From positions 1 to 23,990 of the IMG/VR virus record IMGVR_UViG_3300021957_000302: a stretch of 23,990 nt of DNA; one strand, 5' to 3'. Shown piece by piece: positions 1,250-13,273 of this stretch. The notes beneath the pieces are model-generated. The model was given only the letters and a program-made list of their open reading frames with translations. It made no database searches and was not told the DNA's origin. This stretch comes from a virus. Position numbers and translations under genes: made by a program. Numbering within the stretch: the stretch's first letter is position 1; each line of letters begins with the position of its first letter.

Positions 1250-2033
1250 GCTATCAAACGAAGAGATGAACTATATACGTCAAAACTGTTTTGACTTGCC
1301 GTTGGAAGAAATAGCCAACAATCTAAACAGAACCGTAGCCCCGGTCAAAAAGTTCATAGACAAAGAAAATCTCAAAGCACGAGATTTAACCGATGACGAA
1401 CATCTTCTATCTACTTTACGAACGAAATACTATTACCATGAAATCAAAAAGCAATTCTCCGATGCCGAGATTATATTCTTTGAACACAACTGGATTGATC
1501 TTTTCAAGCAGTTCAACGAAGATGTAACCAAAACCGAAGAAATGCAGATTCTTGAAGTAATCAGAACTGAGATTCTTATCAATCGTTCTATGGAAGATCG
1601 CCAGCAAATCATGGAGCAAATAGATATCATGACAAACCTCATAGATGTCGAAATGGATAAACCTGATGAGCTTCAAGATGTTGGTGCAATCGCAATGTTT
1701 CAAACTCAGCTTGGAGCTTTGATCGGCAGCAAATCTAGTTATATCAACGAGCACGAAAAACTTCTAACAAAAAAAGAACGTTATCTAAAAGACCTCAAAG
1801 GTACTCGTGAACAAAGAAAGCGTGTTGCTGACGATGCTAAAACAAACTTTAGTCTTTGGATGCGACAACTAGATACGCTAGAAGCAAAAGAGCGAGAAGG
1901 ATACGATATGGAGGTTCAAGCTATCGCCGCCGACAAAGCACGCGAAAGATTGGCAGACTTCCATGAGTACGAGGACGGAGAGGTAGATCAGCCCCTTTTA
2001 AACACAGACACAGTAATGGACGAGGACAACTAA
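1230..2033 (+). CDS. HTH protein with long helical body; possible small terminase
   Basis: The first ~50 residues (GKLSNEEMNYIRQNCFDLPLEEIANNLNRTVAPVKKFIDKENL) form a helix-turn-helix of the SANT/Myb or sigma-region-4 type, similar in layout to the minus-strand protein at 1-181. The rest is strongly helical and charged, with a long heptad-like part (about residues 105-215) and an acidic C-terminus ending DTVMDEDN. An N-terminal HTH followed by an oligomerising helical part is the layout of small terminase subunits, and packaging genes follow downstream. It is not next to the large terminase, so this is inference; a transcription regulator is the alternative. TTG 1230 is preferred because AGGAG (1218-1222) sits 7 bases upstream, whereas ATG 1224 is only one base from it. 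It overlaps the sigma-like gene by 20 bases. Confidence 0.6.
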   Translation: MTRKRGKLSNEEMNYIRQNCFDLPLEEIANNLNRTVAPVKKFIDKENLKARDLTDDEHLLSTLRTKYYYHEIKKQFSDAEIIFFEHNWIDLFKQFNEDVTKTEEMQILEVIRTEILINRSMEDRQQIMEQIDIMTNLIDVEMDKPDELQDVGAIAMFQTQLGALIGSKSSYINEHEKLLTKKERYLKDLKGTREQRKRVADDAKTNFSLWMRQLDTLEAKEREGYDMEVQAIAADKARERLADFHEYEDGEVDQPLLNTDTVMDEDN

Positions 2034-3094
2034 TGAGTTTACCAAAAGAAGTTCGCCAAATTCTAAAAGACGAAACATCATCATTTAAAAACTATACAAC
2101 TCAATATATTCTTGAGAATTATGAACTTGGACCAAGTGACATGATACTTAGGTTTGTTGGTGGAGAAGTACAAATCTTAAAAAAGACAAAAAGCGACCGA
2201 AAACTACTAGAGGTTAGAAGTCAGCTTTTAGCATTGATGTTAAAAAAGTATAGCAAGAAACATCCGGGAAAACTCAAAGATTTAGACATAGTTATTCCGG
2301 TATGTCTGTCAGATACTTCAGATAGACCTTTGCAAGAAATTCCATGTCTCGTTTTTAGCAAAACATCTTTTTCTAACAACATTCTTATTCCGAGCGTAAA
2401 CAATCTAGCGTATGATATAGAAATCCAGACAGTAAACGGCTTAGATTCTCCGACTCATAAAAAAGAAAAGTCCTTATGCTTTGTTGGCTCGCTTACTGGA
2501 AACACATCAGACGACATAGAAAACAATGTTCGCGTACAGCTTTTAGAGAAGCTAATCGAATGGGAAGACGACCATAGATTTATGAAGTTGATCAGACCTC
2601 CCAAAATGAAAAATGGACAAGAAAGATTCGAGCAGACAATTCTAGACATATCAAAAAGGCTACCAAACCAAGGAATAGATAACATTAAAAAGTATGTCGT
2701 AAACTCAGAGAAAAGAGTTGGCATAGCCGACCAACTAAAGTATAGGTATCAGCTTTGCGTTGACGGTCACACTTGTGCTTGGGCTAGATTACCTTGGCAA
2801 ATGCAGTCGAACTGTGTTCCAATCAAAATACGCAACAGAAGGCACGACTGGAAGGAATGGTTTTACTATCTCTTAAATCCATGTAAACACTTCCTAGAGG
2901 TAGATATAGAAGACCTAAGTATAGCATATGAGTATCTAAAGAACAACCCACAAGCTGAAAGAGACATCGTGCAGGCCGGAAAAGACTTCGTTTCCAAATA
3001 TTACTCTTTGGATTTTGCTCAGGAAGTATTGATTGAAACCCTTATTCTACTTAATAACAAACAAAATAATGAATTTTTCAAAGGTGAAGAATAA
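2033..3094 (+). CDS. Glycosyltransferase family 90 (CAP10/LPS-modifying type)
   Basis: Predicted to move a sugar (xylose or glucose in characterised relatives) onto a glycan or protein. The C-terminal half carries the CAP10-like signature: KYRYQLCVDG (residues 236-245), then ARLPWQ (251-256), a hydrophobic strand with VPIK, WFYYLLNPCKHFLEV (276-290) and a final helix AERDIVQAGKDFV. In the family the DG and the R/S pocket bind the nucleotide sugar, and the NP-x-KH-F stretch is diagnostic. The N-terminal half has the expected DIVIPVCLSDTS and PCLVFSKTS segments. No signal peptide or membrane helix is seen, so it acts in the cytoplasm. At 353 aa it looks complete. It begins in a TAATG overlap with the upstream stop and ends in another with the next gene, GDP-mannose dehydratase, so the pair is probably translated together. 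Confidence 0.8.
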   Translation: MSLPKEVRQILKDETSSFKNYTTQYILENYELGPSDMILRFVGGEVQILKKTKSDRKLLEVRSQLLALMLKKYSKKHPGKLKDLDIVIPVCLSDTSDRPLQEIPCLVFSKTSFSNNILIPSVNNLAYDIEIQTVNGLDSPTHKKEKSLCFVGSLTGNTSDDIENNVRVQLLEKLIEWEDDHRFMKLIRPPKMKNGQERFEQTILDISKRLPNQGIDNIKKYVVNSEKRVGIADQLKYRYQLCVDGHTCAWARLPWQMQSNCVPIKIRNRRHDWKEWFYYLLNPCKHFLEVDIEDLSIAYEYLKNNPQAERDIVQAGKDFVSKYYSLDFAQEVLIETLILLNNKQNNEFFKGEE

Positions 3095-4236
3095 TGAATA
3101 ATATTAAAAAAACCGCACTTGTTACTGGGGTTACTGGTCAAGACGGTTCTTATTTGGCAGAGTTGCTTTTGGACAAGGATTATTTAGTAATAGGAGTTGC
3201 CAGAAGAAGCAGCGTCTCAAAAGAGTCTAATTCTCGGCTGGTTAATGTATTAGGACATGAAAACTTTAAATTTGTCGAAGGAGAAGTTTCTGATGCAAAT
3301 TCGGTGTATTCTTTAGTAGGAATATGGCGACCAGATGAAATATACAATCTGGCAGCACAGTCACATGTCGGAACTTCTTTTGAGCAACCAGACTATACCT
3401 TCCAAGTAAACGCACTTGGGCCAACTTATTTTCTGGAGGCTATCAGAAGATATAGTCCAGAAACTAGATTTTATCAGGCTTCAACCAGCGAAATGTTTGG
3501 CAAGAATAGCGACCAAGTAACCTGTCTTAAAAATGATGCTTTTATTGATCTTCGTATGCAAGGAGACAATACTGCGTTTATGCCTCAATCTCCATACGGT
3601 GTTGCAAAGCTCGCAGCACACCACCAAGTTAGAATATACCGAGAGGCTTATGGTATTCACGCTAGCTGCGGTATTCTCTTTAATCACGAGTCTGAGCGAC
3701 GAGGTGAGAACTTTGTTACTCGTAAGATCACCAAGTGGATTGGTGAGTTTGTGGCATGGAGTGAGGGTGCTGAGTTTGGTGGTGCGGCAATCATCTTGCC
3801 AGAACACGAGGATATGGTTAGGATTTACGGAAAACCCCTAAACAAACCAGAATTTCCAAAGCTGCGTCTAGGCAATTTAGACGCTTATCGCGACTGGGGT
3901 CATGCACAAGACTATGTAGAAGCTATGCACAAAATGCTTCAACAAGATGTTCCAGACGATTATGTGATAGCCACAGGCGAAACTAATTCAGTTCGAGACT
4001 TTTTAAAAGAGGCTTTCAATGAAATCGGTATTACCAACTATAAAGACCTTATCGTTATTGACCCAAAATTTTATCGCCCCGCAGAAGTTGAATTTTTATG
4101 CGGAGACCCGTCTAAGGCTAATACCAAGCTAAAGTGGTATCCCAAGATAGACTTTAAACAACTTGTTAAAAGAATGGTTCGGAGCGATTTAAATGGCAAA
4201 GCGAAGAAAGAGGCGAGTAAAGAAGAAACCTTATAG
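3094..4236 (+). CDS. gmd: GDP-mannose 4,6-dehydratase
   Basis: Converts GDP-D-mannose to GDP-4-keto-6-deoxymannose, the branch point to GDP-fucose, GDP-rhamnose and GDP-perosamine. The N-terminus TGVTGQDGSYLAELLL (residues 11-26) is the NAD(P)-binding GxxGxxG loop of extended short-chain dehydrogenases. NLAAQSHVGTSFEQP and STSEMFG follow, then the catalytic Tyr168-x3-Lys172 in YGVAKLAAH. FNHESERRGENFVTRKIT and LGNLDAYRDWGHAQDYV are typical family stretches. Length (380 aa) is near normal, with short insertions before the YxxxK motif and before LGNLDAYRDW. It is coupled by TAATG to the glycosyltransferase gene, and its last 44 bases overlap the HNH gene. No reductase, epimerase or aminotransferase to finish the sugar is visible here, so the host or another phage region would have to supply it. 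Confidence 0.95.
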   Translation: MNNIKKTALVTGVTGQDGSYLAELLLDKDYLVIGVARRSSVSKESNSRLVNVLGHENFKFVEGEVSDANSVYSLVGIWRPDEIYNLAAQSHVGTSFEQPDYTFQVNALGPTYFLEAIRRYSPETRFYQASTSEMFGKNSDQVTCLKNDAFIDLRMQGDNTAFMPQSPYGVAKLAAHHQVRIYREAYGIHASCGILFNHESERRGENFVTRKITKWIGEFVAWSEGAEFGGAAIILPEHEDMVRIYGKPLNKPEFPKLRLGNLDAYRDWGHAQDYVEAMHKMLQQDVPDDYVIATGETNSVRDFLKEAFNEIGITNYKDLIVIDPKFYRPAEVEFLCGDPSKANTKLKWYPKIDFKQLVKRMVRSDLNGKAKKEASKEETL

Positions 4237-4591: not shown

Positions 4592-5057
4592 TAAATTTAC
4601 AGTAATCAGAGATACAAGAGAAAAAACAGATTGGGGTTGGTCTTATGCCGAAGACGCATATTGCAACGGAACAATCATATCAAAAGTAAACATAGGTGAT
4701 TATACAGTCGAGGGACTAGAAGATTATGTATGTATAGAGCGAAAGGCTTCTATTGACGAGTTTGCACACAACTGCATCGAAAAGAGATGGCAAAAGTGCA
4801 TGGACAGAATGTCAAAAGTCAAGCACTCCTTTATTCTTTTTGAATTTTCTTGGAACGATATAAACACATATCCTAAATCTGCTAAAGTACCAAAGCACGT
4901 TCGCAACAAGCTAAGAATACCTGCTAAGTATATCAGAAAGGTTATCAACACAGCAAGAAACGATTATAACATTCATGTTATAGCTTGTGATAACGCCATG
5001 AAAGCAGAACAGGTCGCCTACAGAATAATGAAGAAAGCATATGAAATACAACGTTGA
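4584..5057 (+). CDS. ERCC4-type (XPF/Mus81-like) nuclease
   Basis: A compact 157-residue nuclease. The ERCC4 core is clear: VIRDTREK with Asp10, then VNIGDYTVEG with Gly38-Asp39-Tyr40, then VCIERKASIDEF with Glu52-Arg53-Lys54, matching the GDX(n)ERKX3D metal-binding signature. The family cuts branched or flap DNA. There is no helicase and no helix-hairpin-helix tail, so it is the stand-alone nuclease form. It overlaps the HNH gene by 8 bases and the terminase gene by 17, so the three are probably co-translated. The context suggests clearing branched replication intermediates before or during packaging, a job done by other nucleases such as endonuclease VII in T4. That role is inferred; the enzymatic family is seen directly. 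Confidence 0.88.
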   Translation: MDDKFTVIRDTREKTDWGWSYAEDAYCNGTIISKVNIGDYTVEGLEDYVCIERKASIDEFAHNCIEKRWQKCMDRMSKVKHSFILFEFSWNDINTYPKSAKVPKHVRNKLRIPAKYIRKVINTARNDYNIHVIACDNAMKAEQVAYRIMKKAYEIQR

Positions 5058-7128
5058 AGATTTCGATTATAGTTGGTTGAGACTTAAAAAATCCGACCTA
5101 AAAGGAATGGAGAACCCTCTGCTTGTCGATGACGAGTGGTCTCAAAACAATTTTCACTTACATGTTCTAAAAAAGATGCGTGATCCACGCTATCTTAACT
5201 GGACTGTCAAGCATCTTTTAAATATAGATTTGCTGCCAGAGCAAGTAGTTATTCTACAGGAGCTTTGGAGCAAGTCTTTTCCTATGTATATAGCTAGTCG
5301 TGGTTTTGGTAAATCTTTTTTGCTTGCCGTGTATGCTAGTTTGCGATGCTTGTTGGTTCCGGGTTCTAAGATTGTTATTGTGGGTGCTGCTTTTAGACAG
5401 TCCAAGGTTATCTTTGAGTACATGGATGTAATATGGAAAAACGCACCTATATTCAGAAGTCTTTGTAGCGATGCTAGTGGGCCAAGAAGAGACGTTGACC
5501 GATGTACTATAAAGGTTAATGATAGCTGGACTATTGCTGTTCCTTTGGGTGATGGAAGCAAGATTCGTGGTCTTCGTGCTCATACGATCATTGCAGACGA
5601 ATTTAACTCTATTCCTGTAGAGATTTACGAAACGGTTGTTGCTGGTTTTGCTGCTGTTTCTAAAGACCCCGTTGGAAACGTAAAGGACGCTGCTAAAAGA
5701 AAAGCCATGAAAGCTGCTGGTGAATGGAGTGAGCGAAAAGAAGAAACATACCAAGAGCGTCACAAAAACCAGTCTATTCTTTCTGGAACTGCTGGATATG
5801 ACTTTGAGCCTTATGCCGATTATCATAGAAAATACAAAGCTACTATCAGAAGTGGTGGCGATATGTCAAAGATTACTGGCGACAAAGAAGATTCTGATTC
5901 CGCTACAGAGATACCAGATTACATGAGAAGGCTAAACCACAATGAGTTTAGTATTATTAGGATTCCTTACGAGCTAATACCAGAAGGATTTATGGATGAC
6001 CAACAGGTTAGTCGATCTCGTGCAACTATGCACAACGGTATTTATTTGATGGAGTATGGTGCTTGCTTTGCCAAAGACTCTCAAGGTTTCTTCAGAAGAA
6101 CCATGATCGAGGCTTGCGTAGCAAGCGAAAAAAACATAAAAAGAGACCATTGGCCTGCAAACATATGCAGCCAGCCATTTGATGCGGTCACAAGAGGAAA
6201 TCAAAACAAGCAGTATGTGTTTGGAATCGACCCTGCTAGTGAAGTTGATAATTTAGCTTTGATTGTTATGGAGCTTCATTCAAACCATCAAAGAGTTGTT
6301 TATTCTTGGACAACCAACAAAAAAGACTTTCAAACAAGGAAAAAGCTTGGCTTAACAGAAGTGCATGATTACTATAGCTTTGTGGTCAGAAAGATACGAG
6401 ACTTGATGCAGGTATTTCCGTGCGTTAAGATCGGAATTGATGCTCAAGGTGGTGGATATCAAATTGCAGAAGGCTTGAGAGACCCTGATAAAATGGATGC
6501 AAGTTTGAATGAGGTGGCTGTTTTACCTATCATCGAGGATAAAGAAAAAGATACAGATAGATTGCCGGGGCTTCACATCTTAGAATTGGTTCAGTTTGCT
6601 AGTGCAGAATGGGTGTCCAAAGCAAATCATGGACTCAGAAAAGACATGGAAGATAGATTTATTCTGTTTCCTAGATTTGACCAGTTGACCTTAGCAATGA
6701 TTTCAAAACAAGATGAGATGAAATTTAAAAAGCTAAAGGAACAAATTGGAGATAGTGCAGCACTTAAATTGTATGACACGATGGAAGATGTTGTGATGGA
6801 TATTGAAGAATTGAAAATGGAACTCTCTACCATAATGGTGAGCCGAACAGCATCTGGGCGTGAAAAATTTGACACACCAGAGATAAAGCTGGGAACTGGA
6901 AAAAAGGGTAGAATGAGAAAAGACCGCTATAGTGCTTTGATAATAGCAAACCAAATAGCTAGAACAATGCACAGAGAAATTCCAAATCCCGCGTATAGCG
7001 TGGTTGGAAGGGTTGCCACGGCAATGGGCGGCAAGAAAAAAGACAAGGTGGAGGACATGTACAAAGGGCAATCTTGGGCTTCTTCGTACACCCCCAGTGT
7101 TGTAAAAATAATTCGCAGAAATCAATAG
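5041..7128 (+). CDS. terL: Terminase large subunit
   Basis: The packaging motor: an ATPase that pumps DNA into the prohead and a nuclease that cuts concatemers. The N-terminal ATPase shows an adenine-binding LLPEQ (65-69), Walker A SRGFGKS (86-92) and Walker B TIIADEF with Asp186-Glu187. The C-terminal RNase H-like nuclease has three acidic residues in expected settings: Asp397 in VFGIDPASEVDN, Asp467 in KIGIDAQGGG and Asp628 in KDRYSALIIA. A charged insert of about 60 residues follows the ATPase core (around 205-265). At 695 residues it is at the long end of the family. It overlaps the ERCC4 gene by 17 bases. Unlike most phages, it is separated from the portal gene by about 4 kb holding two virion-like paralogs and a sulfotransferase. 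Confidence 0.96.
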   Translation: MKYNVEDFDYSWLRLKKSDLKGMENPLLVDDEWSQNNFHLHVLKKMRDPRYLNWTVKHLLNIDLLPEQVVILQELWSKSFPMYIASRGFGKSFLLAVYASLRCLLVPGSKIVIVGAAFRQSKVIFEYMDVIWKNAPIFRSLCSDASGPRRDVDRCTIKVNDSWTIAVPLGDGSKIRGLRAHTIIADEFNSIPVEIYETVVAGFAAVSKDPVGNVKDAAKRKAMKAAGEWSERKEETYQERHKNQSILSGTAGYDFEPYADYHRKYKATIRSGGDMSKITGDKEDSDSATEIPDYMRRLNHNEFSIIRIPYELIPEGFMDDQQVSRSRATMHNGIYLMEYGACFAKDSQGFFRRTMIEACVASEKNIKRDHWPANICSQPFDAVTRGNQNKQYVFGIDPASEVDNLALIVMELHSNHQRVVYSWTTNKKDFQTRKKLGLTEVHDYYSFVVRKIRDLMQVFPCVKIGIDAQGGGYQIAEGLRDPDKMDASLNEVAVLPIIEDKEKDTDRLPGLHILELVQFASAEWVSKANHGLRKDMEDRFILFPRFDQLTLAMISKQDEMKFKKLKEQIGDSAALKLYDTMEDVVMDIEELKMELSTIMVSRTASGREKFDTPEIKLGTGKKGRMRKDRYSALIIANQIARTMHREIPNPAYSVVGRVATAMGGKKKDKVEDMYKGQSWASSYTPSVVKIIRRNQ

Positions 7129-7155: not shown

Positions 7156-7190
7156 AATATCAAACAAAAATTCTCGCGAAAAATAATAAA

Positions 7191-8447
7191 ATGACAAAAG
7201 ATAAATGTAGGTGCAAATGCTTTCAGCAGTCACACGGTAATTATTGTGTTAGCAACCCCTCAATTCAATATCAAGGAATGCTTAGGGCTTCTGGTAATAT
7301 TGGAGTATATGATGTTGTCACATTCAATATCAGTGCCGATGTAGAAAAGTGTTGGGAGGGAACTGGCAATCAGGCAACTCTTGACGCTGGTGGATATAAT
7401 GGCGTTTTTGTTAATCTCAGCGGTTCTAATCTTGGTCCAAACGCCGAGCCAAAAACCTCAACGTCGATTCTTCCTTTAACGGGAATCGCCTTGTCGGACG
7501 AACTAGCTAACAACGACAGCAGTCAAGATCAGACTAGATACTCTAGACAAATCAGCTATATATTTACTGGGGTAGAAGTAGATGCTGCGACTCCTCACAA
7601 TCAGGCTTATGCTGTTGACTGGCAATTAAATGCTGGCTCTGGATCACACGAAACTCCAAGTTGGTGGAATCCAGAAGATGGCAAGCAAGTAGGGGTTCCT
7701 CCTTGCTCTAACTATGGAAGACTGACAGCTATATACGAAGTTCCAGAAGGTTCTTCTAGTGGCGTTAAGGATACTTCAATACCTCTAAAAACTGCTGGAG
7801 CAACCAATACAAACGGTGTTGTTGTTTACGAGCAATCAGTTTTAAATCAGTCTGGATATCCAGATCAGGCTGGGAAAGTTAGTCCCGAACTAATGGGGAC
7901 TGGGGTCATTATTCCTCTTTTAGACCCTCAACCGTGGGGAGGATCGGGGATAGACTTCCCAGAAAGCATTGAGGTTGTTCTTGGAGAAGCATTCGATACA
8001 GTTAGTGGCAGTCTAAACCAAGACGATGTTTTGACTTTGAATTTCGTCACATCAGTCGGCGAACGATATTATTGGTCTGATGGCACGGGTATTGAGCCCG
8101 GAACAGGAACAGATTTGGTTGTGTCTTGGCAGTGGAGTAAGGGTGAAGTAGTTACTGGATATTCGACCGAGCCTTTTACGAGAAGTAGAAACGGTGTCCT
8201 GAACCTCGATATTAGAGCTAATAGGACCGACGAAATCTTCGACGCTGTTTTTACTTTGAATAGAGGAGGTCGTCAATTATCCACTGCTACATACCCCTTT
8301 ACCCTCTTTGACGATTACGGATTTAAAGATTTATTCAACCAGTCTGTAAATAATCCAAATGCATATAATGGTTGGCCTGGAATTACTTACTCTGAAGGTC
8401 TTAGGTGGGGTCAAGAAATGTTTAAAAGCATGACTCCAATTGCTTAG
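7191..8447 (+). CDS. Cysteine-containing virion-type protein, paralog A (418 aa)
   Basis: I do not recognise the family by name. The protein starts MTKDKCRCKCFQQSHGNYC and then reads as beta-rich, with glycine, serine, threonine and asparagine abundant, as in phage surface proteins. It aligns along nearly its whole length with the next gene. Shared landmarks are the N-terminal CxCxC plus GNYCVSN, SGNIGVYDV, DVEKCWEG, NLSGxNLGPN, PLTGI, HNQAYAVDW, VPPCS, LNQSGYP and MGTGV. All six of these cysteines are shared, suggesting metal binding or disulfides. The alignment weakens after about residue 270 and recovers at the end (GW-x-x-x-T-x-S to FKSM). There is no signal peptide. Its place between terL and portal suggests a late virion protein, perhaps a fibre or spike. 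The ribosome site is weak. Confidence 0.75.
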   Translation: MTKDKCRCKCFQQSHGNYCVSNPSIQYQGMLRASGNIGVYDVVTFNISADVEKCWEGTGNQATLDAGGYNGVFVNLSGSNLGPNAEPKTSTSILPLTGIALSDELANNDSSQDQTRYSRQISYIFTGVEVDAATPHNQAYAVDWQLNAGSGSHETPSWWNPEDGKQVGVPPCSNYGRLTAIYEVPEGSSSGVKDTSIPLKTAGATNTNGVVVYEQSVLNQSGYPDQAGKVSPELMGTGVIIPLLDPQPWGGSGIDFPESIEVVLGEAFDTVSGSLNQDDVLTLNFVTSVGERYYWSDGTGIEPGTGTDLVVSWQWSKGEVVTGYSTEPFTRSRNGVLNLDIRANRTDEIFDAVFTLNRGGRQLSTATYPFTLFDDYGFKDLFNQSVNNPNAYNGWPGITYSEGLRWGQEMFKSMTPIA

Positions 8448-8482
8448 AAAAATTATTTAATATTTTACAGAGAAAAAATAAA

Positions 8483-10078
8483 ATGACAAAAGATAGATGC
8501 AGATGTAGATGCACACTTCAAAATCAAGGTAACTACTGCGTTAGCAATGTACAAACCTCTTTCAAATCAATATATAGAAGTTCTGGAAACATTGGAGTTT
8601 ACGATGTTTTTAACTTCACAATACGTGCTGATGTAGAAAAGTGTTGGGAAGGAAACGCTCCTGACGGAGAACACGATGGTGTTTTTATTAATCTAAGCGG
8701 CGTAAATCTTGGTCCAAACACCGAGCCTACAGTAATCCTGCCGCTAACAGGTATTAGTTTATCTCAAGTGCTTGAAACAGAAGACAGTACGCAGGGTCAA
8801 ACAACATTTTCTAGGGACATTTCTTATGTCTTTAGTGGCGTTGAGGTAGATGCTGCCGTTCCTCATAATCAAGCATACGCTGTTGACTGGGAGGTTAATG
8901 CTGGCTCTGGAGAGTTCCAAACTCCAAAATGGGCATCTGGCGAAGAAGTGAGTATTCCCCCCTGTTCCACTTGGGGAAGGATCATTGGAATATATCCCGT
9001 GCCAGAAGGAGAAACAAGTGGTATTGTAGATACGTCTTTGCCACTTTCGCCGGGAGCTACGAATACTAATTTTATTGGCGTTTCTGAGAAGTCTATTTTA
9101 AATCAATCTGGATACCCTGAGCAACCGGGAAGATTAAGTCCCGCAGAAATGGGAACTGGAGTTGTCGGAGGAACACTTCTAGACCCAATGCCTTCAGGTT
9201 TTGCGGAGTTTCCCGAATCTATTGAAATTGTCGCTGGTGCTGCTTTTGACGGAGGTACGAATGTTATAAATGAAGACGATGTAGTAACTTTAACAAAAAC
9301 AGCGGGGTCGAGTGAGAATTTGGTTTACTACGCCGAAATCCCGTCAGAATCAAACGTGCTTTCAGCAACAAATAGGGTTGTTTTGAGCTTTTTGCGAAGA
9401 AACGAGTCGGCTGGCCCTTATGGAACCACGGCTCCAGAGGCTTATATTGCCGTCTATGCTCAACCTAACGGGCAGGCCAGATTTAAAAGATCTAATGGGT
9501 TAATAGCTGACAAAATATATACCTTTGGAGAGTTACTTTTCAATAACTATGCAAACGGTGGAGCAAATGCGACCAATTTTGGCGATTGGTCTAATTTTAC
9601 TTTTTCAAATGGTTCGTCCACTGCGTATGGAACTAATATATTCAAATCTTTAGTTAGCGTTCCAACTCCATCAGTTGCGGTAGAATTAATTACTAATGGT
9701 CTATTTGTAAATCCAAATTTACCTCCTTGGGTAGTAGAGGAGCCTACTTGTTTTGTCACAGAGGGGCCAGACTATACACTTCTTTGTTCGGACAGCTTAG
9801 GCTCTAATCCTAACGCTAGAGTTCAGCAGACATTCGATGTAGAGAGTGGTGTAACGTACAGAGTTTCCTATGAGGGAAAAAGTTCAAACGGTGGAACAGT
9901 TGAGTTTACTATCGGAGGTGTTACCACTTCAGATATAGCTCTTAGTACATTCTTTCAAGCTCGCACTATTGATGTTGTAGCAACAGCGTCAAATTCTTTA
10001 GGAATAGTGATCGGGTCAGAAACAGAGTCGTCTAAGTCTGTCGAATTTGACAAAATTTCAGTTGTAAAGCTTGTGTAA
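8483..10078 (+). CDS. Cysteine-containing virion-type protein, paralog B with extra C-terminal domain (531 aa)
   Basis: A tandem duplicate of the gene at 7191, sharing the N-terminal CRCRC plus GNYCVSN, the VEKCWEG and IPPCS cysteines, and most other landmarks to about residue 265. The region from 270 to 350 has diverged. The two align again around residues 350-395 (DWSNFTFSNG to FKSL), where paralog A stops. Paralog B then adds about 132 residues from Val400. This part reads ELITNGLFVNP, then QQTFDVESGVTYRVSYEGKS, then VEFDKISVVKLV, the layout of a carbohydrate-binding, galactose-binding-like jellyroll (CBM4/9 style). Two further cysteines lie in that domain. A receptor- or glycan-binding surface role is plausible but inferred. 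The spacer before it (8448-8482) is AT-rich, and no strong ribosome site is visible. Confidence 0.78.
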   Translation: MTKDRCRCRCTLQNQGNYCVSNVQTSFKSIYRSSGNIGVYDVFNFTIRADVEKCWEGNAPDGEHDGVFINLSGVNLGPNTEPTVILPLTGISLSQVLETEDSTQGQTTFSRDISYVFSGVEVDAAVPHNQAYAVDWEVNAGSGEFQTPKWASGEEVSIPPCSTWGRIIGIYPVPEGETSGIVDTSLPLSPGATNTNFIGVSEKSILNQSGYPEQPGRLSPAEMGTGVVGGTLLDPMPSGFAEFPESIEIVAGAAFDGGTNVINEDDVVTLTKTAGSSENLVYYAEIPSESNVLSATNRVVLSFLRRNESAGPYGTTAPEAYIAVYAQPNGQARFKRSNGLIADKIYTFGELLFNNYANGGANATNFGDWSNFTFSNGSSTAYGTNIFKSLVSVPTPSVAVELITNGLFVNPNLPPWVVEEPTCFVTEGPDYTLLCSDSLGSNPNARVQQTFDVESGVTYRVSYEGKSSNGGTVEFTIGGVTTSDIALSTFFQARTIDVVATASNSLGIVIGSETESSKSVEFDKISVVKLV

Positions 10079-10097
10079 AGAGTAAAAGGAAAAGCAT

Positions 10098-11123
10098 ATG
10101 GGAATGATTATAGTAACAGGTGACCCTAGAAGTGGAACAAGTTTAACAATGCAAATGTTGGACATGTTGGGAATTGAAGCTACAGGTGAAAAGTTTTTTG
10201 AACCTAAAAAAGAAACTTCAGACGAGTTAACAAAAAGCCGTATGGAGCGTCAGAAAAAGTTAAATCCGGGAGGGTTTTACGAAATTAAAGGTCTTGTTAT
10301 GCGGGGGTTTTTGCCAGATGATGACTTTAGCTTGTTTGAAAATAAGTCTGTAAAAGTTATAGCACCGTCTAGCTTGCCTCCTCGAACACCGCAAGAACAT
10401 GTTGACAAATACGTTTTTTGCGTTAGAAATCCGAAGTCAGTAGCAATGAGTCAGTTAGGTCTTAATGAAACTATTATGACGGAGCAAAAACTTTTAGGTT
10501 CTCCAGATCGCTATATTAGTGAAATAGGAGATATGATTGCGTATCTAAAAGACAATATGGATGACCGTTGGTTGTTTATTGATTACGACGATACGATAGA
10601 AAATCCGATGGCTACCGCTCAAGCGATCTGTGATCATGTGGGTGGTGATCAATCAAAAGTCAAGGACGCTGCGGCTATTGTCAAGCAGAAGCTCAAGCGT
10701 TCTGATAAAGAATTTGCAAAATGGCCTAGCGAACAATCTGGGATGCTTGTAGAAGACATATACAAAGCCTTATCAAATCACGATCTAATGGACGCTGTAG
10801 AGGCAGACAGACAGTCTTACTACGCGTCTCAAAGGTTGGAAAATGTAACTTGGTGGAGTCCAGAATATGGAAGACACATTAATCCTAGTCTAGCAAGGTC
10901 TATAGAAAAAAAGCCTAGATTAAGAAAAAATCTTAAAAAAGATATTGCAAAAAGGACTGAGCTTGGACATTATCCAGAGGTTGTTGAAGCTGAGGAAACT
11001 TATACTATCAAGCGTCCAGATGATCTTGGTGATCTTGTTAGGAATAAAGTAGTGTACGAAGGAGAAGAAATGACTTGGGAAGCTGCTGTAAAAAAACATC
11101 AAGTAAAAAGGTTTAGAAGCTAA
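10098..11123 (+). CDS. Sulfotransferase family protein
   Basis: Predicted to transfer sulfate from PAPS to an acceptor, most likely a sugar. The N-terminus MIIVTGDPRSGTSLTMQML contains the 5'-phosphosulfate-binding loop (Thr7-Ser15, GDPRSGTS). The 3'-phosphate-binding element is KYVFCVRNPKSVAMSQL, where Arg110 and Ser118 are eight residues apart, as in characterised sulfotransferases. NPGGFYEIKG (57-66) is a further substrate-loop type segment. The sulfotransferase core occupies roughly the first 230 residues. The C-terminal ~100 residues are basic and charged, include WWSPEYGRHINPS, and are not recognised. There is no membrane anchor, so it acts in the cytoplasm. An AAAAGGAAAAG ribosome site precedes ATG 10098. 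It sits between the paralogous virion-type genes and portal, an unusual place that suggests late expression. The acceptor is unknown. Confidence 0.85.
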   Translation: MGMIIVTGDPRSGTSLTMQMLDMLGIEATGEKFFEPKKETSDELTKSRMERQKKLNPGGFYEIKGLVMRGFLPDDDFSLFENKSVKVIAPSSLPPRTPQEHVDKYVFCVRNPKSVAMSQLGLNETIMTEQKLLGSPDRYISEIGDMIAYLKDNMDDRWLFIDYDDTIENPMATAQAICDHVGGDQSKVKDAAAIVKQKLKRSDKEFAKWPSEQSGMLVEDIYKALSNHDLMDAVEADRQSYYASQRLENVTWWSPEYGRHINPSLARSIEKKPRLRKNLKKDIAKRTELGHYPEVVEAEETYTIKRPDDLGDLVRNKVVYEGEEMTWEAAVKKHQVKRFRS

Positions 11124-11125
11124 AT

Positions 11126-13273
11126 ATGAATAAAAATATACCAACCCATCAAAAAGAAAATACACAGGCATACGTAAGCTGGGCTTCTGAATCAAATAGA
11201 GAAGAAAGTCTTGCCGCATATGGAAGTGCTTTGATCAAAGCTTCTGATAATATCATACATGCACAGAACAGAGACTTTAGTGGTCTAACCAACTATGCTG
11301 ATGGTAAGCCGGGATTAAATAGCAAGGATTTTGATTGGTTTAGACCGGGGCAAGCCGCACCTAGAACAGAAAAAGAAGCTATAGCGTTCGGAAGATACGT
11401 TTACAAAAGAGTCGGCATAATAAGAAACTCTATGGATTTGATGGGAGACTTTTGTGCTCAAGGTGTAAGACTGGTACATCCTAACAAAAGAATCGAACGT
11501 TTTTATAGAGAGTGGTTTAAGCAAGTTGAAGGTGAAAGAGTCTCAGAGCGTCTCGGTCATCTTCTCTTTAGAGAAGCTAATGTCCCACTGAGATGGTACA
11601 CCGCAAAAATAAATAAAGCCAAACGTTTAGAGATGCAAAAAAGCATTGCTGCTGACATTAGCATAAACAAGAATAGTCAAACATTTCAAAAGGGAGAAAT
11701 TCCTTGGAGATATAGTTTTATCGACCCGCTTTTAGTTTCGCCAATCGGCGGCTCAATGTCGACTCTGACTAATGAAACTCTACTTAAATTAAAAATCCCA
11801 ACTAAGTTAAGAAACGAGATCAGAAGACTCGTAAACATGTCGAATAAGAACGATGCTGAAGGGGTCGCTGCAAGTAGACTATTAAGCCAGATGTCGCCCG
11901 ATATTTTAGAAGCAGTAAAAAGAAACAAAGAAGTGATTCTGCCTCCAGAAAAAAGTAACATATATTATTACAAAAAGGACGACTGGGATTGCTGGGCAAC
12001 GCCTATTTCGTGCTCTGCATTTGAAGCTTTAAATCTATACCAAAGGCTACAGTTAGCAGATAAGGCCGCTTTAGATGGAGCCATGAACAAGATTAGGGTT
12101 TGGAAGATCGGTAGTCTAGAACACAAATTAGCTCCGACTGAGATAGCTTCATCTACTTTATCTGATATGCTTGGAGCCAATGTAGGAGGTGGAACTATAG
12201 ACATAGTTTGGGGTCCAGATATTGAACTTCTGGAAACAAGCAGCGATATTCAGTCGTATCTTGGCGAGGCAAAATACAAGCCTGCTCTAACAGATATATA
12301 CTCAACTCTAGGAATTCCCTCCTCACTAACAGGAAGTGCTTCCGGTGGAACAACAAATAATTACATATCATTAAAAACTCTTGTAGAAAGACTAAACTAC
12401 GTAAGAGCTATAGTAGTAAAGCACTGGGAAGAGCAGATAGAAATCGTACAGAAGGCGATGGGGTTCAGAAAGCCTGCACAGGTAGAGTTTGACATTATGC
12501 ACTTAGAAGACCCAGCGGCAATGACCACACTTCTACTTAATATGGCTGATAGAAATATTGTTAGCGATGAATTTGTCCAGCGTCATGTGAAGGCTGATCC
12601 TGATATGGAAAAAAATAGATTAAGCAAAGAGTCTCAAGACAGAGGCAACAAGGGTCGAGAGAAGGTAAGTCCTTATCATCAGGTAGATCAAGATTATGGA
12701 TTAAAGAAGATCGCACTACAAACAGGTCAGTCTGCACCTTCTGAGGTGGGATTGGAGCTTGAAGAAAAGAAAGAAGGAGAAGATTCTCTTGTGAATCTCA
12801 AAGAACCAAAAGGCAATCCAAGCCAACAGGAGTCTCCAGTTCAAGAGCCGGGAAGACCAAAAAACGTTAAAGATACACAAAAGAGACAAGAGAAAACGTT
12901 TACGCCAAAGATAAAAGCTAGTTTTGGCTCAGATATGATCTGGGCAGAGGATGCTCAGGCAAAAATATCTGATATCATCAACCCCCTAATGCTGACTTCT
13001 TTAGGTAAAAAATCTCTAAGAAACTTAACTTCAGAAGAGTTTGACAGCCTAGAAGATGTAAAATTTGAAATTTTGTGTAATTTAAACATAGGAGACGAAA
13101 TAACTTCTGAGATTATTTCTGAGGTTGTTAAGGTTCCTGTCGAGAATATACACGCAGGGTTCAATCTGTGGCTAGACAATTCTAGAGAAGAGTTTGATTC
13201 TGAATCGCTATCTGTTTCAGAAATGAGAAAAATGCGAACTTATTATTATATTACAAAAAAATACGAGGCATAA
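11126..13273 (+). CDS. Portal protein
   Basis: Forms the ring at the capsid vertex through which DNA enters and leaves and to which the terminase docks. The body (about residues 60-500) has typical portal features: an N-terminal wing (AFGRYVYKRVGIIRNSMDLMGDF), the stretch FIDPLLVSPIGG, then LYQRLQLADKAALDGAMNKIRVW, and the segment DIYSTLGIPSSLTGSASGGTTNNYISLKTL before a long helix. Position before the protease/scaffold and capsid genes supports the call. At 715 residues it is long. After about residue 500 comes a charged linker rich in E, K, Q and P, then a C-terminal domain of some 120 residues (about 595-715) with alternating helices, ending MRKMRTYYYITKKYEA. That domain is not recognised. 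It lies 2 bases after the sulfotransferase stop and 1 base before the protease gene. Confidence 0.9.
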   Translation: MNKNIPTHQKENTQAYVSWASESNREESLAAYGSALIKASDNIIHAQNRDFSGLTNYADGKPGLNSKDFDWFRPGQAAPRTEKEAIAFGRYVYKRVGIIRNSMDLMGDFCAQGVRLVHPNKRIERFYREWFKQVEGERVSERLGHLLFREANVPLRWYTAKINKAKRLEMQKSIAADISINKNSQTFQKGEIPWRYSFIDPLLVSPIGGSMSTLTNETLLKLKIPTKLRNEIRRLVNMSNKNDAEGVAASRLLSQMSPDILEAVKRNKEVILPPEKSNIYYYKKDDWDCWATPISCSAFEALNLYQRLQLADKAALDGAMNKIRVWKIGSLEHKLAPTEIASSTLSDMLGANVGGGTIDIVWGPDIELLETSSDIQSYLGEAKYKPALTDIYSTLGIPSSLTGSASGGTTNNYISLKTLVERLNYVRAIVVKHWEEQIEIVQKAMGFRKPAQVEFDIMHLEDPAAMTTLLLNMADRNIVSDEFVQRHVKADPDMEKNRLSKESQDRGNKGREKVSPYHQVDQDYGLKKIALQTGQSAPSEVGLELEEKKEGEDSLVNLKEPKGNPSQQESPVQEPGRPKNVKDTQKRQEKTFTPKIKASFGSDMIWAEDAQAKISDIINPLMLTSLGKKSLRNLTSEEFDSLEDVKFEILCNLNIGDEITSEIISEVVKVPVENIHAGFNLWLDNSREEFDSESLSVSEMRKMRTYYYITKKYEA

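Follow-up and report, generated by a model that had tools for sequence, protein, structure and literature searches.

Sulfotransferase genes in phages have been reported before: they are carried by OM43 and Synechococcus phages, where their function is stated to be unclear (PMC10580990), and by viruses from glacier ice (PMC8290583). That a phage may modify its own virion is exemplified by the mycobacteriophages, in which virions are glycosylated by phage enzymes (Freeman 2023, as described in PMC12363180), and in the Rax system a bacterium makes a tyrosine-sulfated peptide (PMC6637879, PMC4216712). A literature search by phrase returned neither a sulfated virion nor a tested phage sulfotransferase. 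Here we consider a stretch of viral DNA of 23,990 bases (the window), which is probably a fragment of a virus genome and which encodes such an enzyme. An earlier reading of these letters (the sequence-only reading) had proposed sulfation as a distinct phage strategy, which is too strong in view of the phage sulfotransferases already reported (PMC10580990, PMC8290583). The window enzyme joins these known cases, and it is its genomic setting that is unusually informative. Two proteins that are candidate acceptors came with the gene, the insert has defined limits and its empty site is known, and by this the recurring question of the phage sulfotransferases is narrowed.

The gene lies at positions 10098..11123, on the plus strand like all features of the window given below, starts with ATG downstream of AAGGA, a plausible ribosome site, and encodes 341 amino acids. 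Its product exceeds the curated Pfam cut-offs of Sulfotransfer_3 (PF13469; E 2.3e-10, 41.6 bits vs a cut-off of 27), Sulfotransfer_1 (PF00685; E 5.6e-8, 32.9 bits vs 22) and, barely, Stf0 (23.2 vs 22), and these matches are far beyond chance, while searches of PHROGs, NCBIfam and the INPHARED phages with the same protein gave zero matches. A related phage contig, L003, has an orthologue that is 93% identical, and comparison of the two genes gives a dS of 0.19 and a dN of 0.035. Their ratio of 0.18 means purifying selection, which argues that the gene is functional; it resembles the ratios for the GT90, dehydratase and sigma-like genes of the same phages, the core genes having ratios of 0.02-0.09. 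The sequence-only reading had claimed an intact PAPS sulfotransferase, and the Pfam matches, the selection on the gene and both PAPS loops agree with this, so that the product is very likely a sulfotransferase of the PAPS type.

The 5'-phosphosulfate-binding loop GDPRSGTS (residues 8-15; 10119..10142), of the PxSGTT-like kind typical of the PAPS sulfotransferase superfamily, is conserved across 58 relatives, with G8, R11, G13 and T14 invariant in 58/58 and P10 and S15 present in 57/58. The 3'-phosphate-binding motif R110...S118 (10425..10451) aligns with R130...S138 of SULT1A1 (own numbering) and has the same spacing of 8. Both of its residues occur in all 58 relatives, and loop and motif stand where the sequence-only reading had placed them. 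In SULT1A1 alignments, K86 (10353..10355; 57 of the 58 relatives) aligns with the catalytic Lys106, and SULT1A1-type enzymes are found by the 58-sequence profile at E 1e-10 to 1e-9. A counterpart of the catalytic His108 of SULT1A1 was not found among the 58 relatives, where the column holds Ile, Val or Leu (I88 in the window). In TPST and in heparan-type enzymes the base is a Glu, and to judge from conservation either E62 or E31 is probably the catalytic base here. E62 (10281..10283), the Glu of an NPxGxxE motif, is present in 58/58 relatives and is a candidate catalytic or substrate residue; E31 (10188..10190), acidic in 56/58 by column counts, is a candidate general base. E31 may lie near the position of TPST Glu99, in TPST2 the catalytic Glu after the first loop: counted from the Arg of the loop, E31 has offset 20 and the TPST Glu offset 21, and the profile aligns TPST over the first loop only.

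A structure model built with the 58 sequences has a mean pLDDT of 72.6, high at residues 1-205 except for about 120-140 and low beyond. When the model is compared with the PDB by Foldseek, 50/50 among the matches listed are sulfotransferases (prob 1.00, E down to 9.8e-7), with retinol dehydratase and SULTs at the top and with TPST and antibiotic sulfotransferases also included; viral kinases rank lower. The TM-scores are low, about 0.36, so that in the model the fold class is clear but the geometry is not. It might be thought that the fold has been kept without the chemistry, as in a binder of PAP or another nucleotide, or that a kinase-like P-loop enzyme has been misread. In line with this, L003 apart, the phage and bacterial members are only about 23-34% identical, there is no characterised close relative, the pLDDT is moderate and the TM-scores are low. 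The residues that contact PAPS are, however, intact and invariant, the gene is under purifying selection, and we regard loss of the chemistry as very improbable. The kinase-like P-loop reading has been dropped: a missing PAPS pocket or kinase-like relatives had been named in advance as contrary to the sulfotransferase assignment, and what was found was Sulfotransfer_3 in 18/18 aligned phage members and nothing but sulfotransferases among the PDB matches listed, with the viral kinases below them.

The C-terminal extension (about residues 205-341; 10710..11120) is modelled with low confidence. The earlier description of a basic C-terminus with no recognised domain holds, since a Pfam search with the C-terminal ~135 residues alone gave zero family matches. 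The extension is missing from the short phage and bacterial relatives and partly aligns with one other phage sulfotransferase (L110, see below). A NUMOD-like or zinc-ribbon origin, which had come from inspection of the sequence, was unsupported.

The virus belongs to an uncultivated tailed-phage group. The terminase large subunit (TerL; 5041..7128; PHROG terminase 6.4e-17) has 131 relatives in viral contigs, its matches in 50,697 phage records are weak (best 25% identity over 60% of the length; about 33% over a shorter stretch), and the portal protein has zero matches in the same records. Among 84,980 species genomes of bacteria and archaea, none could be confirmed to contain a TerL relative, and host assignment failed; close relatives of the group were likewise sought in collections of cultured phages and species genomes, and none were found. 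The group as such is large (the window and L006-L085), with contigs of up to 126 kb. Across 80 kept loci, scored wherever covered and with few exceptions, the gene order is sigma-like, unknown, (GT90), GDP-mannose dehydratase, HNH, ERCC4 nuclease, TerL, portal, protease/scaffold-like, cement and major head. For the major head protein there is a capsid structure match (E 4e-9), and the portal (11126..13273) is supported by its conserved position and its relatives, one of which matches a PHROG portal family at E 1.9e-7, while six members reach a different portal family (0.0075 at best). In the window the GT90-type glycosyltransferase (2033..3094; PF05686 5.7e-11) is a possible source of a sugar acceptor, and it is followed by the GDP-mannose 4,6-dehydratase-like gene (3094..4236; PF16363 8.8e-109), which scores 367 bits with TIGR01472, below the equivalog cut-off of 415. 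Where a relative covers this region, the dehydratase-like gene is nearly always found three genes ahead of TerL (window, L007-L085); a near-core sugar-nucleotide gene inside a packaging module is unusual.

Between TerL and portal lies an accessory insert of about 3.94 kb (7170..11105), which contains two tandem Cys-rich proteins, here called slot proteins, and the sulfotransferase. Its limits follow from the relative L212, where the TerL end is almost identical to that of the window, the portal is 90% identical, and 80 bases separate the two genes. The junction in L212 reads TCAAACAAAA CCCTTGCGGGAAAAACAAC AAAAGGTTTAGAAGCTAAAC ATG; in the window its left part ends at 7169 and its right part occupies 11106-11125. 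The old portal leader, untranslated at the empty site of L212, now codes for the final five residues of the sulfotransferase, KRFRS (11106..11120), and the stop. Most relatives have the portal immediately after TerL, a few carry Cys-rich proteins in between, and among the related phages only the window and L003 have the sulfotransferase in the slot. Sulfotransfer_3 was sought in 46 further records, many of them short fragments although most span the slot, and was found in none; a rescan of 45 of these with Sulfotransfer_1 also gave none. Judged from these junctions, which were out of reach of the sequence-only reading, the sulfotransferase gene is accessory, a part of the insert, with the empty site that is expected of a phage accessory gene (moron) present in L212. 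The many empty sites favour a gain of the insert in the window, and the slot-protein homologues in L007-L013 allow for a loss in L212. The junction is a variable slot in L007, L008, L009, L010, L011, L013 and L033; most of its occupants share CxCxC...WC, and that of L033 is an unrelated protein of 372 aa.

The sulfotransferase gene ends 2 bases ahead of the portal start, and its place in the packaging and structural gene array makes late expression plausible, as far as gene order can indicate; promoter and terminator scans of the DNA came out near the shuffled expectation. The sequence-only reading had given the order as virion-type proteins, sulfotransferase, portal. The order itself stands and the portal is supported through its relatives, but family searches gave no confident match that would mark the slot proteins as virion proteins. 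Slot protein 1 (7191..8447) has an N-terminal domain with CxCxC...YC and an extra C-terminal domain, and slot protein 2 (8483..10078) is its tandem paralogue, with a weak match to a carbohydrate-binding family (CBM_4_9, E 0.003) below the cut-off. Both are beta-rich; L003 has one such protein, which is longer, and a search for more slot proteins returned L003 only. Their relatives share CxCxC...WC/YC and further conserved positions. The extra C-terminal domains occur only in the slot proteins of the sulfotransferase-bearing window and L003, with lengths of 418, 531 and 670 aa vs 259-307 aa elsewhere, and related phages also carry slot proteins without any sulfotransferase. Between window and L003 the GT90 and slot-protein genes have a dS of about 1.0, and their neighbours 0.1-0.6. 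Such values suggest allele swapping, at 2033-3094 and 7191-8447 in the window and at 2588-3835 and 7966-9978 in L003. The strong divergence of both had suggested a connection of GT90 with the slot proteins, which was dropped since GT90 occurs without slot proteins.

Further relatives of the domain were sought with the pattern PRSGTSxxMxML, which hit viral contigs at 22 places, or 21 when L003's contig is set aside; an earlier, narrower DNA pattern for the loop had given, beyond L003, only chance matches in other genes. The neighbours of the phage members match families of head closure, DNA ejection, terminase, portal, major head, scaffold and tape-measure proteins. The 57 neighbour genes gave about 29 structural family matches, vs 9 for 47 genes that lie on five of these contigs at a distance of 8 kb or more; as the counts are of family matches and not of genes, they show a tendency and do not amount to a test. 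In the L110 locus (IMG/VR 3300024581_002315) a long homologue, 25% identical over residues 3-286 and thus into the C-terminal extension, comes after a tape-measure gene and a pair of Cys-containing paralogues and stands in a row with an APS-kinase-like gene (PF01583, 8e-10, above the cut-off) and a second sulfotransferase. This row fits PAPS chemistry, and L110 5422-7633 is a possible phage-borne unit for making PAPS and for sulfation. An APS-kinase gene was sought in L003's record, a fragment, and none was found.

In bacterial genomes the domain has at least 442 confirmed loci. The best 80 of these comprise 24 stand-alone ORFs (190-246 aa), and most of the others are ORFs of about 850 aa, of which three were scanned and found to be phosphodiesterase-TPR-sulfotransferase fusions. 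Large fusion proteins of this type, with a type I phosphodiesterase, TPR repeats and the sulfotransferase domain, are counted in L126, L121, L186 and about 50/80 bacterial loci, three of them by scan and the others by the length of the ORF. With homologues widespread in bacteria and often parts of such fusions, the natural substrate may be a metabolite or a glycan of bacteria. One reading is that the phage enzyme acts on its host, sulfating a surface polysaccharide or lipid and thereby altering receptors (superinfection exclusion) or envelope traits; the GT90 and GDP-mannose-dehydratase genes could serve such envelope changes, and the gene is accessory, like morons. Its spot before the portal, together with the slot proteins, suggests on the other hand structural timing, when a change of receptor is less useful, and phage relatives of the domain are also found in structural modules, so that action on the envelope appears possible but on the unlikely side. 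A further reading is that the enzyme sulfates a host protein or a small molecule, for instance so as to weaken a defence signal or adjust metabolism. The phosphodiesterase fusions are compatible with a small-molecule acceptor, and enzymes of the same fold often act on small molecules, as do the top PDB matches. The catalytic histidine of the cytosolic SULTs has, however, no counterpart here, and the cassette has no defence or metabolic neighbour; we consider this improbable.

The reading that we prefer, though tentatively and at somewhat less than an even chance, is that the enzyme, inserted with the slot proteins in the packaging and head gene array, sulfates a surface made by the phage, either the slot proteins or a glycan. 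In this mechanism the PAPS-dependent sulfotransferase, which shares its insert in the TerL-portal junction with the two Cys-rich slot proteins, would be translated within the packaging and head array and would draw PAPS from the host pool, and sulfate would be added to the slot proteins, or to a sugar placed on them or on the virion through the phage GT90 and GDP-mannose-dehydratase genes. A phage-made surface is favoured because the insert joins slot proteins and enzyme and an empty site exists, because the phage relatives of the domain adjoin head, portal, terminase and tail genes, because the extra slot-protein domains occur only where the enzyme is present (in one lineage), and because sugar genes stand upstream. 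Each of these four arguments is circumstantial. The neighbourhood in L110, with its tape measure, paired Cys proteins and APS-kinase-like gene, counts in the same direction, as does the existence of phages that glycosylate capsid and tail proteins of their own (PMC12363180). GT90 and dehydratase are also found in relatives without slot proteins, from which follows that they need not act on slot proteins. A narrower version, in which the cassette is self-contained and the slot proteins, with their extra C-terminal domains, belong to the virion surface and are sulfated, on tyrosine or on a deoxyhexose glycan, by the enzyme inserted with them, we hold to be rather unlikely. If true, it would give a sulfated virion coat, which in the literature searched is unreported for any phage.

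The nearest described enzymes are the phage proteins of Sulfotransfer_3 type in Synechococcus phage S-SKS1 (AGH31791), S-SRM01, OM43-phage-like genomes (PMC10580990) and Xanthomonas phage FoX4, which share the fold and the PAPS loops and are stand-alone genes. The window enzyme is only about 26% identical to that of S-SKS1, the sole annotated sulfotransferase found by relaxed tblastn (at E 10), and it differs from all of them by its greater length (341 aa), its C-terminal extension and its place in a TerL-portal insert with two slot proteins. The bacterial PF01663-TPR-PF13469 proteins have the same domain in their C-terminal ~190 residues, about 25-34% identical, but with a phosphodiesterase and TPR repeats, both of which the phage protein lacks. 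TPST1/2 have the PRSGT loop and the sulfotransferase fold as here, the profile meeting TPST over the first loop and TPST being among the PDB matches; the bacterial RaxST would share both features. The nearest long homologue, in L110, shares the paired paralogous Cys-containing proteins and a tail-gene region, but belongs to a different phage, stands after the tape measure and is accompanied there by an APS-kinase-like gene and a second sulfotransferase. With matched relatives that differ by the insert, and with a phage locus that has an APS-kinase-like gene of its own, the acceptor is directly testable. For the preferred mechanism, sulfation of a phage-made surface, the model is the virion glycosylation of mycobacteriophages (Freeman 2023, as described in PMC12363180): there experiment has found sugar on the phage's own capsid and tail, whereas here gene content suggests that sulfate would be added.
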